64,000 nt of DNA from positions 3,596,001 through 3,660,000 of the forward strand of contig NZ_CP134146.1 of NCBI RefSeq assembly GCF_031583575.1, read 5' to 3'. The DNA is from Thalassotalea nanhaiensis (GTDB lineage: Bacteria > Pseudomonadota > Gammaproteobacteria > Enterobacterales > Alteromonadaceae). The notes under the pieces are model-generated. The model did no database searches. It was not told the origin of the DNA and worked only from the letters and a program-made list of their open reading frames with translations. The translations under genes and the position numbers were made by a program. This document shows, in pieces, positions 12,670-16,041 of the stretch; within the stretch, counting starts at the first letter, position 1; the number at the start of each line of letters is the position of its first letter.

Positions 12670-14607
12670 GTGAGTGGAAAAAATATTGTGCTGAATAAAT
12701 TATGGCTTAGTAAAGTTTTGTGCCTGCAATTGGTTATTCTTACCTTTTTTGTAAACACAGTTTCAGCAAAAAATAACTTTTCAGCTACCTATAAAACCGC
12801 AAATAAAGTTGTTGCTATTGGTGATGTCCATGGTGCTTATCCAGAATTGCATGCCCTCTTAACAAAACTCAAATTGATTAATGATAATGATGATTGGGTC
12901 GGTGGTAATACTTATTTAGTCAGCTTAGGAGATTTACTCGATCGAGGCGCTGATTCTCGAAAAGTTATGGACCTACTGATAAAACTTCAGCAACAGGCGC
13001 CTAAAAGTGGCGGTATGGTGTTGCAGGTGCTGGGTAATCACGAACTTATGGTGACAACAGGCGATCTTAGATATGTATCAAAAGAAGAGTTTGCCGCATT
13101 TACAGCTGAAGAAACTCAGCAGCAAAGAGCCAGTTTACAGGCACAATTTAATGCCCAACACCCAGACGAAAATGAAGATGCTTTGGCAGCAAGGTTTGCC
13201 AAACAATACCCTCCAGGTTTTAGTGCTTTTATTGCAGCCTTCTCTCCTAAAGGTAAATATGGCAGCTGGCTAAGAGCGGCAAGACCGGTCATTCAGGTCA
13301 ATGATTCTGTGTTTGTTCATGGTGGTTTATCATCGGCGTTGCACGACATGGACGTAACAGAGATAAACCAAATAATTGAGCCTGTTTGGGAATACCAAGA
13401 CATTGTCGCTGATTTGCAAACAAAAAGAATACTTGCTGAAACGGCCGATTTTTGGAGTCGGATAGATTACCTCAACAAAGCGATAAAACCCTATATAGAC
13501 AAGAATAAAAAAAACTCTCGAAATAAAATACCTAAATGGCACAAAGACTTAATTCGACTGCACGAATTGCAAAGCAGCTTTGCGTTTTCTGATAGCAGTC
13601 CAATGTGGTATAGAGGTAATGCATATTGCCACCCCTATAGTGAATCTTTCAACACTGAACGTGTATTAAAAAAACTCGACGCAAAACGCATAGTAGTTGG
13701 ACATACGCCACTATATAAGGAAATAAAAAGCCGATTAGCTGGACAAGTCATTCTTGCCGATACAGGCATGTTAAAAAAAGTTTATAGAGGCAATGCTAAT
13801 GCCGTTGTTATCGAGCAGGGTATGATAAAAGTTCAAACACTAGCCGCGAATAGTTTAGAACCCATATTGGCCGAGGAAAAGCGCTTTAGCGTTGGCTCAA
13901 GCTCGATGACAGATGAACAAATAAAAGACTTTTTATTAACTGCCCAAGTCACCAATTCAGAGCCTATCGGTGTCGGCATAACCAAATCCGACAAATTAAC
14001 TTTAACAAAAGGTGGCAAACAAATTCGTGCACTGTTTAAAACTCACGATTCCGATCCTCAGTTAGACAACACAAGCAGGTATCCAAATTATAGATATATA
14101 GCAGATCGATATAAATATGAAATAGCCGCCTTTCGTCTTGATCGTATGCTCGACTTACACCTTGTACCTGTAGCTGTGCAAAGAAGAATCGACGGAAAAA
14201 ATGGTCTGCTGCAATATTGGGTTAATGATTTACTCAGCGAAAAGGAAAGAGAAGAGCAAAATATTGCATTCAACAGTTATTGCCCGCAACTCGAACAATA
14301 TATCAATCGCTACATTTTCGATGTATTGATATATAACGATGATAGAAATCAAACCAACTTAAACTTCTCTAAAAAAGATTTTATGCTCTACCTTATCGAT
14401 CATTCCATCGCCTTCGGAGTATCAAAAAACCCGCCAAAAATGTACAGAAAAGCAACCTTAAAGTTATCGTCATTGTTTAGAGAAAAATTGGCAAGTCTTA
14501 CCTATGATCGGCTCGATGAAGAGCTCGATGGTTTATTAAGTAACTCTCAAATAAAAGCAATTATCAAGCGCAGAGACTTGATATTAAAAACCGCTACCAG
14601 TCCTTAA
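12670..14607 (+). CDS. Exported PPP-type metallophosphatase fused to a FAM20/HipA-like kinase domain
   Basis: 645 aa from a GTG start; another GTG lies at 12688. The N-terminus is a signal peptide (hydrophobic 18-30, likely cleavage after VSA at 33), so the protein is predicted periplasmic. Residues 47-350 carry the complete calcineurin-like phosphoesterase set: GDVHG (51-55), GDLLDRG (87-93), GNHE (122-125), VHGG (216-219) and VVGHTP (342-347). Residues about 430-645 look like an atypical kinase of the FAM20/HipA/PI4K-like fold. Lys457 is in ALFK, Glu484 in YKYEIAAFRLDRML, the catalytic pattern NDDRNQTN is at 556-563 (D558, N563), and the metal Asp577 is in LIDHSIAFG. Both active sites look intact. 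The MFS nucleotide-exchanger-like gene starts 27 nt downstream. The substrate is unknown. Confidence 0.75.
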   Translation: MSGKNIVLNKLWLSKVLCLQLVILTFFVNTVSAKNNFSATYKTANKVVAIGDVHGAYPELHALLTKLKLINDNDDWVGGNTYLVSLGDLLDRGADSRKVMDLLIKLQQQAPKSGGMVLQVLGNHELMVTTGDLRYVSKEEFAAFTAEETQQQRASLQAQFNAQHPDENEDALAARFAKQYPPGFSAFIAAFSPKGKYGSWLRAARPVIQVNDSVFVHGGLSSALHDMDVTEINQIIEPVWEYQDIVADLQTKRILAETADFWSRIDYLNKAIKPYIDKNKKNSRNKIPKWHKDLIRLHELQSSFAFSDSSPMWYRGNAYCHPYSESFNTERVLKKLDAKRIVVGHTPLYKEIKSRLAGQVILADTGMLKKVYRGNANAVVIEQGMIKVQTLAANSLEPILAEEKRFSVGSSSMTDEQIKDFLLTAQVTNSEPIGVGITKSDKLTLTKGGKQIRALFKTHDSDPQLDNTSRYPNYRYIADRYKYEIAAFRLDRMLDLHLVPVAVQRRIDGKNGLLQYWVNDLLSEKEREEQNIAFNSYCPQLEQYINRYIFDVLIYNDDRNQTNLNFSKKDFMLYLIDHSIAFGVSKNPPKMYRKATLKLSSLFREKLASLTYDRLDEELDGLLSNSQIKAIIKRRDLILKTATSP

Positions 14608-14634
14608 AAATGATAATAATAGGCAGTGCAGTTA

Positions 14635-16041
14635 ATGGATAACTCCAACACCTCACCATCGCAAAATCCTCCAGAAACATTAACTTGGATTGAACGATTA
14701 TTAGCATCCGGTGCAGACATTAAACCGGGTGAAGGCTGGAATATTATCTTGCTGATGGGCTCACTGTTTTTTTTACTGCTCACAGCTTACTTATTAAAAC
14801 CCGTGCGGGATACATTGATATTAGTTGAAGGGGGCGCTGAAGTTCGCAGTTATGCAGTAGCACTGCAAGTAGTGGTGCTTGTTATTCTACTGCCCATTTA
14901 TGGGATATTTTCACGTCAATTTAGCAGTCGTAAATTCATGATTTACATTGCAGTATTCTTTTCCTTCAATCTTTTCTTGTTTTATTTCCTAGGACAAAAA
15001 GGCCATCAGCTCTCAATTCCTTTCTTTCTTTGGCTTGGTGCTTTTGGGGTGCTCATGGTGTCTCAGTTCTGGGCATTTACCTCCCAAGTATACAACAAAA
15101 AATCTGGAGAAAGGTTGTTTGCTTTGGTTGCCGTAGGGGCCAGTTTAGGCGCCTGGGTCGGTTCGGCAATATCAAGGGGATTGATGGATTATTTTAATAG
15201 TTTTCAAATGCTCCTTATCAGCATCATCCCATTACTTATCTCTGCATATTTAGCGGCAAATGTAAAAATTCAAGATAGCGCAGGCTTTATTGAACCGCCA
15301 ACATCTACTGAAAAACAGCCCTCCCTGTTAAGTGGTTTTTCACTCGTTTCTAAAAGTCAGTACTTACTGCTAATTGCAATTTTTGTCATTTTAATGAACT
15401 GGTGCAGTAGTATTGGAGAATACTTAATGGCTGTACTGGTTGAAACGTTTTATCAACAAGGGGCTGAGTTAGGAAACATAACTGACTCAAAAGAAAGTTA
15501 TATTGGCAAGTTCTACAGCGAATTTTACTTTTGGGTGAATTTAATTGGTTTATTTATGCAGTTTTTCATCGTTTCACGGTTGATAAAATGGGCAGGATTT
15601 AATATTGCTTTCATTTTAACACCTTTGTTGATATTTATGGGCTATGGCTTATTAGCCTTTTTTCCTTTGGTTGCGTTATTTAAAGTCATAAAGGTATCTG
15701 AAAACGGGCTAAATTATTCACTGCAAAAAACCACATTGCAAATACTGTTTTTGCCAACCACACGCCGTGAGCAATATGAAGCTAGAGCAGTTATCGATAC
15801 TGTTTGCTGGCGAATAGGCGATTTATTGCAAGCAGCTACGGTATTTATTGGTTTAAACCTGTTGAATATCTTGCCGCAAAAATTTCTCTACTTGAACCTT
15901 ATATTAACTTTACTGATGATCATTTTAGCTTATTTTATCGGTAAAAATTATCTACAAAAAAGCAGAAATGAACGTTCAAATACAGTCTCTAGCCCTGAGG
16001 AAAACTTAATAGCGAACAGAAATAACGTGCCCATTAATTGA
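14635..16041 (+). CDS. NTP/NDP exchange (ATP/ADP translocase)-like MFS transporter
   Basis: About 468 aa from the ATG at 14635; a GTG at 14626 would add three residues. It has about 11-12 membrane helices. The segment LKPVRDTLILVEGGAEVRSYAVALQ after helix 1, SQVYNKKSGERLFALVAVGASLGAW, and TTRREQYEARAVIDTVCWRIGD near the end are features of the bacterial NTP/NDP antiporter-like (Npt/TLC) branch of MFS. In free-living bacteria the substrate of this branch is not established. It follows the phosphatase-kinase gene by 27 nt on the same strand, so the two are probably co-transcribed; a link between nucleotide export and a periplasmic kinase is an inference. Confidence 0.75.
   Translation: MDNSNTSPSQNPPETLTWIERLLASGADIKPGEGWNIILLMGSLFFLLLTAYLLKPVRDTLILVEGGAEVRSYAVALQVVVLVILLPIYGIFSRQFSSRKFMIYIAVFFSFNLFLFYFLGQKGHQLSIPFFLWLGAFGVLMVSQFWAFTSQVYNKKSGERLFALVAVGASLGAWVGSAISRGLMDYFNSFQMLLISIIPLLISAYLAANVKIQDSAGFIEPPTSTEKQPSLLSGFSLVSKSQYLLLIAIFVILMNWCSSIGEYLMAVLVETFYQQGAELGNITDSKESYIGKFYSEFYFWVNLIGLFMQFFIVSRLIKWAGFNIAFILTPLLIFMGYGLLAFFPLVALFKVIKVSENGLNYSLQKTTLQILFLPTTRREQYEARAVIDTVCWRIGDLLQAATVFIGLNLLNILPQKFLYLNLILTLLMIILAYFIGKNYLQKSRNERSNTVSSPEENLIANRNNVPIN

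Follow-up and report, generated by a model that had tools for sequence, protein, structure and literature searches.

Can a kinase work in the bacterial periplasm, which is taught as a place without ATP? The question is raised by a locus in a stretch of 64,000 nucleotides from Thalassotalea nanhaiensis (contig NZ_CP134146.1, positions 3,596,001–3,660,000; hereafter the window, in which coordinates of local features are given), where an open reading frame of 645 residues plus stop with a GTG start (12670..14607, forward strand) encodes an exported PPP phosphatase–FAM20-like kinase fusion. The original prediction, made from the sequence alone, had described an exported fusion of an intact phosphatase-like domain with an intact FAM20/HipA-like kinase domain and regarded it as a self-contained device for reversible phosphorylation. 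Both domains proved to be real and intact at these coordinates; the device is not self-contained, because a downstream carrier gene of the NTT family had been missed and the two domains also evolve separately. Our favored reading, which we regard as fairly probable, is that the fusion and the downstream carrier constitute a periplasmic module for reversible phosphorylation, the carrier being directly relevant to the objection that no ATP is available beyond the cytoplasm.

The fusion protein and the carrier encoded downstream

The AlphaFold2 model of the 645-residue fusion has a mean predicted local distance difference test score (pLDDT) of 85.4 and a predicted template-modeling score (pTM) of 0.83, with low pLDDT for the N-terminal helix (residues 6–30). 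A signal peptide is predicted heuristically at residues 1–34 (12670..12771), with the cleavage site placed by eye after TVSA and before K, and the gene could instead start from the in-frame GTG at 12688. The PPP metallophosphatase domain (residues ~44–400; 12799..13869) matches Pfam Metallophos (PF00149; E-value, 2e-12; 48.4 bits against a cut-off of 21.5), its best PDB match being the cold-active PPP-type tyrosine phosphatase from a Shewanella species (2z72; 7.9e-31); the fold search with the whole fusion model also returned tyrosine phosphatase (1.2e-17). The Shewanella enzyme (2z72, 1v73) is the closest solved relative and has the same metal motifs, but the phosphatase described here is fused to, or gene-paired with, a kinase. 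All PPP motifs named in the original prediction are present (GDVHG, 51–55; GDLLDRG, 87–93; GNHE, 122–125; VHGG, 216–219; GHTP, 344–347), and the nine phosphatase-site residues are intact; the label "H125-type" used there needs correction, the histidine of GNHE being H124 and residue 125 being E. Elsewhere in the window's genome, an open frame of 383 residues (G000:C1:2068650-2069462; L002 and L003) encodes another phosphatase of this type, one that stands alone, and in another locus (L038:6049-7884) a same-type phosphatase carries a different, repeat-like C-terminal part instead of the kinase.

The FAM20-like kinase domain occupies residues ~412–645 (13903..14604). Its three best PDB matches as a single sequence were FAM20A (8.3e-6), a FAM20-family xylosylkinase (1.7e-4), and FAM20C (0.0086), and those of a profile of 23 kinases were FAM20A (5.6e-14), the glycosaminoglycan xylosylkinase hydra Fam20 (5xom; 3.6e-10), and FAM20C (6.3e-10), the next match after the FAM20 chains being PI4K-II (2.7e-4). 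The structural check proposed for the C-terminal domain agrees with a kinase fold, since the first kinase match in the whole-model fold search was hydra Fam20 (2.1e-7), with PI4K-II at 1.4e-6, both placed in the kinase half by identity. The kinase domain is related to animal FAM20A/B/C by profile in both lobes and by fold. Because the curated cut-offs were not reached (Pfam Fam20C, 13.1 bits for the whole fusion and 15.1 bits for the domain against 26.8 bits; Pfam HipA_2 (PF20613), 19.2 and 21.3 bits against 27 bits), we call the domain FAM20-like and not a member of the FAM20 or HipA families. TIGR03843 likewise matched the fusion below its curated cut-off. In a Pfam search with 23 diverse family members at E 1e-3, HipA_2 was returned for seven, PI3_PI4_kinase for six, FAM198 for one, and Fam20C for none. 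The HipA-like kinases of HipA_2 and SCO1664 (TIGR03843) gave weak matches around the catalytic loop and C-lobe, and the fusion differs from them in having an export-type N-terminus and in falling below their cut-offs. In the combined FAM20/HipA-like label, FAM20 is thus retained as the closer by sequence profile, and HipA-like is the weaker part.

The kinase landmarks are all found with the numbering originally given: K457 (14038..14040), E484 (14119..14121), the catalytic loop NDDRNQTN of residues 556–563 with N556, D558, R559, and N563 (14335..14358), and D577 in the motif IDHS (14398..14400). We take K457, E484, D558, and D577 to be the equivalents of the β3 lysine, the αC acidic residue, the catalytic aspartate, and the metal-binding aspartate of FAM20, respectively; in the alignment, N563 stands where FAM20A has E. 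Positions 457 and 484 covary as a K–E ion pair predicts. Of 112 kinases, 107 can be compared at these positions (the other five have a gap at 457); among them, K or R always goes with E or D (87/87), and a non-basic residue goes with a non-acidic one in 18/20, a count for much of which one Q/N clade may account.

The next gene on the same strand (14626..16041; 471 residues from a GTG at 14626, the likelier start being the ATG at 14635) encodes a homologue of the ATP/ADP carriers of the NTT/TLC family. Only 18 nucleotides (14608..14625; 27 nucleotides if the ATG is used) separate it from the fusion gene, and so short a gap suggests that the two genes form one operon. Pfam TLC (PF03219) was matched at 3.5e-12 (46.3 bits against a cut-off of 21), a profile of 17 carriers returned only ADP/ATP carrier chains from the PDB at E 0.1 (1.5e-24 and 1.4e-16), and the five best PDB fold matches of the carrier model (pLDDT, 84.6; pTM, 0.81) were ATP/ADP translocators with template-modeling scores of ~0.5–0.7. 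A single-sequence phmmer search of the PDB gave nothing, and an NCBIfam search gave no match. By Pfam, profile, and fold the protein resembles Chlamydia pneumoniae NTT1 and AtNTT1, but it differs from them in its linkage to genes of exported enzymes, and it is the sole NTT-type gene found in the window's genome. According to excerpts of PMC5381601, NTTs occur in free-living bacteria, where their role is left open, and the functionally characterized ones come from parasites and plastids.

Distribution of the fusion and its association with the carrier

A full-protein single-sequence scan of genome contigs found no relatives; the kinase-domain profile did find them, with matches in 161 GTDB genome stretches, the best 80 of which were taken as kinase-profile relatives. 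Relatives were also found in genomes of the genus, family, and order to which T. nanhaiensis belongs, and none was found in viral contigs. The tables of fusions, kinases, and carriers from which we count leave out L001–L036 and L132–L133 (places refetched as L037–L051, the window's own gene, and the relatives' stand-alone phosphatases, L014–L032), L052, L062, L072, and L076 (the same as loci L049, L037, L045, and L050), L159 (a duplicate of L073), and L086, where a short contig bears a fusion together with carriers. A kinase was scored as intact when D558, N563, and D577 were kept, and the counts ignore relatedness; dead kinases are under-counted, because the patterns of the relative search favor intact catalytic loops.

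The fused form occurs in Gammaproteobacteria (Halieaceae, Kangiellaceae, Steroidobacteraceae, and others) and in some Acidobacteriota and Aminicenantes, while other members of the latter two have the kinase as a separate protein. Across the 51 fusion genes tabulated, the two-domain layout is kept between families and phyla, so that the arrangement is not due to chance. The domains also go separate ways, as is evident from the fusions with a degenerate kinase (10/51, the other 41 being intact) or a degenerate phosphatase site (2/51; L037 and L073, both with an intact kinase), and from ten Acidobacteriota or Aminicenantes loci in which separate kinase and phosphatase genes lie within 5 kb. In 48/51 fusions the nine phosphatase-site residues are intact; in L067, E125 is replaced by D. 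A PPP gene is located within 5 kb in 17 of the 48 loci with a stand-alone kinase (stand-alone in ten, fused in the others), a carrier in 15, and either of them in 21. In the acidobacterial locus L104:1862-12363, a long NTT protein is encoded together with four stand-alone kinases, one phosphatase, and one fusion whose kinase is damaged. In L110, L116, L123, and L128 (assigned to Aminicenantes/Acidobacteria), a phosphatase fused to or lying beside a damaged kinase is followed by the carrier and then by two intact kinases, the last of which has Q instead of N563 in three of the four loci.

Export was called when the N-terminus had a hydrophobic stretch preceded by a basic residue, a home-made heuristic and not SignalP. 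By this measure, an export-type N-terminus is present in 50/51 fusions (the 51st, L084, is lipoprotein-like by eye), 9/11 stand-alone phosphatases, and 53 of the 59 evaluable sequences among 61 stand-alone kinases, compared with 102/310 other genes of the loci as a control, and some of these N-termini look like twin-arginine translocation (Tat) or lipoprotein types. The export claim is well supported by these N-termini together with a pair of cysteine residues across the two domains. C320 in the phosphatase domain (13627..13629) and C538 in the kinase domain (14281..14283) occur together in 43/51 fusions, are both missing in eight, and are single in none, the split following lineage; C538 is found in 1/61 stand-alone kinases, and C320 in 0/11 stand-alone phosphatases (two not scorable). 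This co-occurrence suggests that C320 and C538 form an interdomain disulfide, which would in turn place the fusion in an oxidizing compartment.

A carrier gene lies within 1.5 kb of 32/41 intact-kinase fusions, the chance of a carrier beside a kinase being <0.1% per gene by arithmetic (73/274 genomes, ~0.4 matches per genome of ~3 Mb). The carrier also matches the state of the kinase. Around 12 dead kinases, a carrier is present within 5 kb in eight cases, and all eight loci also have an intact kinase gene; four have no nearby carrier, and none of these loci (0/4) has an intact kinase. At one chromosomal site in four Kangiella loci (L075, L082, L083, and L084), an intact fusion is accompanied by a carrier; in L043 and L048, with the same gene order, the fusion is dead, the carrier is absent, and the sole carrier kept, elsewhere in these genomes, belongs to another clade. 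L042 and L044 have a dead fused kinase that is adjoined by an intact stand-alone kinase and the carrier. Among 97 relatives, 11 have both kinase and carrier, one has a weak kinase match only, two have the carrier only, and 83 have neither (Fisher p 9e-12, kinship ignored). Some NTT was found in all 36 genomes searched via kinase loci, and the NTT match was at least 295 bits in 28 of the 32 genomes reached via L053–L087, the others being G368, G379, G386, and G387.

These associations bear on the explanation that the phosphatase is the sole working enzyme, with the FAM20-like domain as a nucleotide-binding or scaffold regulator and the carrier as a chance or indirect neighbor. It would account for the complete phosphatase site in the ten fusions with a degenerate kinase and for the phosphatase half containing 30 of the 45 columns that are invariant among 13 fusions, but it is made unlikely by the retention of D558, N563, and D577 in the other 41 fusions, by L037 and L073, in which the phosphatase site is degenerate and the kinase is retained, by the existence of exported stand-alone kinases, and by the occurrence of the carrier with an intact kinase.

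Other genes were also seen near the kinases. Beside an intact fusion in a Shewanella genome, the NTT gene (L087:7789-9176) is broken into two frames, through either damage or an error of sequencing. Proteins that by eye resemble class III adenylate cyclases (11 loci; representative, L078:1362-3707) and cyclic-nucleotide-binding proteins (nine loci; representative, L077:4082-4768) recur near the genes of the module, and both families look regulatory by eye; in excerpts of PMC5381601, genes with a cyclic-nucleotide-binding domain adjoin NTT–HEAT fusions.

Carrier clades and their other neighbors

Six carriers besides the window's own were matched at E <1e-100 in 274 Gammaproteobacteria, and their loci were reached without using the FAM20-like kinase as the query. 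For three of them the gene immediately upstream encodes a CotH kinase (Pfam, 2e-41 to 2.5e-57), so that the NTT carrier is linked to another family of atypical kinases as well; the CotH genes (L162:3784-5754, L163:4310-6109, and L164:3992-5821) run directly into the NTT gene. The other three carriers (L165–L167) have acid-phosphatase-like genes beside them, apparently encoding lipoproteins, and the two of these tested with Pfam gave 5.3e-42 and 4.3e-38. The CotH kinases of spore formers are atypical kinases similar to FAM20C, as described in excerpts of PMC12189002; CotH belongs to a different Pfam family from the kinase described here, and no PPP-type phosphatase was found in L162–L164.

In a FastTree phylogeny of 104 carriers, for which 48 carrier regions were taken from genome-search matches, 52 form a clade with support of 100, of which 39 are beside FAM20-like kinases, three beside CotH, three beside acid phosphatases, and seven beside none of these, so that CotH-family genes too are linked to the kinase-associated clade. 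A second clade of 30, also with support of 100, has 18 members beside aldo/keto reductases, six beside short-chain dehydrogenases or epimerases, and six beside neither, and the remaining 22/104, of which 14 are beside FAM20-like kinases, fall outside both clades, some on long branches. The make-up of the clade of 52 is biased, because it was largely sampled through the kinase, whereas the clade of 30 was sampled regardless of neighbors. The second-clade carriers beside an aldo/keto reductase are those of L137, L141, L144, L146, L155, L156, L160, L161, L170–L176, and L179–L181, and those beside a dehydrogenase or epimerase are in L134–L136, L142, L143, and L157. Aldo/keto reductases make up 17 of the 66 NTT neighbors scanned (of 83), and 15 of the 16 among the matches listed have, by eye, twin arginines near the start. 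The second clade also adjoins signal-peptide short-chain dehydrogenases and Tat-like epimerase-type proteins, and it may export NAD(P)(H).

The broader assignment that every carrier copy serves a FAM20-like kinase was rejected, the second-clade carriers not being beside such a kinase and most NTT-bearing Gammaproteobacteria being without it. Instead, we put forward, tentatively and as a generalization that may well fail, that the NTTs of free-living bacteria are cofactor exporters for extracytoplasmic enzymes, supplying ATP to FAM20-like/PPP or CotH kinases (one large clade and two smaller groups) and NAD(P)(H) to exported oxidoreductases (the sister clade), with the fusion as one node and as a bacterial counterpart of lumenal phosphorylation in the eukaryotic secretory pathway.

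The carrier might alternatively serve scavenging as a nucleotide importer, with the exported kinase and phosphatase acting on some periplasmic small molecule (sugar, lipid, or nucleotide). The NTTs of parasites do import nucleotides (excerpts of PMC5381601), related carriers adjoin the acid phosphatase genes of L165–L167, and the relatives by fold and profile include PI4K-II and the FAM20-family xylosylkinase. An importer would, however, be of no benefit to an exported ATP-using kinase, the carrier tracks kinase integrity, and related carriers are linked to CotH, a protein kinase according to excerpts of PMC12189002; we therefore consider scavenging improbable.

A proposed module for periplasmic phosphorylation

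In the module that we favor, the NTT-family carrier in the inner membrane would send ATP out of the cytosol and take ADP back from the periplasm, an exchange that a high ATP/ADP ratio in the cytosol would drive in the outward direction. The exported FAM20-like domain would spend this ATP in phosphorylating an envelope or secreted substrate, possibly a protein, and the PPP domain of the same chain, in Gammaproteobacteria probably disulfide-linked to the kinase, would take the phosphate off. Where the fused kinase has decayed, a separate exported kinase of the same locus would take over, with the dead fused domain perhaps acting as its allosteric partner, as FAM20A does for FAM20C; alternatively, the kinase and carrier side would be lost and the phosphatase kept alone. 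The module may be seen as a parallel to the eukaryotic secretory pathway, into the lumen of which ATP enters, and FAM20 kinases work outside the cytosol as is proposed for the exported bacterial kinase. Unlike FAM20, the bacterial kinase is joined to a PPP phosphatase, by fusion or by gene pairing, and has an NTT carrier linked to it. In excerpts of PMC4421793 and PMC5413348, Fam20A is a pseudokinase that activates Fam20C. Active kinases and pseudokinase paralogues coexist in the bacterial family as FAM20C and FAM20A do.

Several observations weigh against this module. Q/N replaces K/E in 14/112 kinases, so that activity is not assured. The 12 dead kinases represent about five lineages by our own estimate. 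Neither a PPP gene nor a carrier lies within 5 kb in 27 of the 48 stand-alone-kinase loci, many of them on short contigs, and the phosphatase alone is commoner, a whole-protein match (mostly to the phosphatase part only) being found in 41/97 relatives and a kinase match in 12/97. No carrier lies within 5 kb of 9/41 intact-kinase fusions; five of these (L049, L058, L067, L068, and L070) have a main-clade carrier and one (L053) has a carrier of a small kinase-adjacent group elsewhere in the genome, and for L045, L065, and L074 the whole-genome search found no main-clade or small-group carrier. Two groups separate from the main clade take in 14 of the 53 carriers that lie next to a kinase. NTTs must also have other uses, because the 274 Gammaproteobacteria include 73 with an NTT and five with a FAM20-like kinase (three of them weak). 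Finally, the search for recurrent neighbors gave no candidate substrate gene, mostly returning lineage-specific synteny.

Two further explanations fare less well. The kinase-like domain could catalyze another nucleotide-dependent transfer in the periplasm, such as AMPylation, to be reversed by the PPP domain, and kinase-fold enzymes of other chemistries are known, for example a polyglutamylating bacterial pseudokinase cited in the reference list of a paper, but the residues of a classical kinase (K, E, N, and the catalytic and metal-binding D) are all present, and this and the covariation of K and E make such a transfer very unlikely. That the fusion stays in the cytoplasm with its N-terminus as a membrane anchor only is hardly credible, since the heuristic nature of the export call and the low model confidence of the N-terminal helix are outweighed by N-termini of the Sec, Tat, or lipoprotein type in fusions and in stand-alone kinases and phosphatases alike, and by the cysteine pair spanning the domains.

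The statement in the original prediction that no such system had been described agrees with our searches of open-access literature (most subscription journals lying outside it), where none of the titles and abstract openings among the matches listed shows a bacterial FAM20-like kinase joined to a phosphatase or links an exported kinase with an NTT. PMC5865150 contains neither "bacteria" nor "prokaryot", "HipA", or "phosphatase", and only "bacteria" occurs in PMC7948968, once, in the references. Bacterial kinases near FAM20 are as such not new, because Legionella kinase families cluster with FAM20/CotH in excerpts of a Legionella kinase survey (PMC9758233), which mention no phosphatase fusion or carrier for them.

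If the favored module is real, bacteria can run extracytoplasmic reversible phosphorylation on ATP that a dedicated carrier exports, which would offer a testable answer both to the view of an ATP-free periplasm and to the role of NTTs in free-living bacteria. The family would also supply bacterial FAM20 relatives in which live and dead kinase domains form natural series, and the locus would be a compact model for how extracellular phosphorylation can be powered and reversed.

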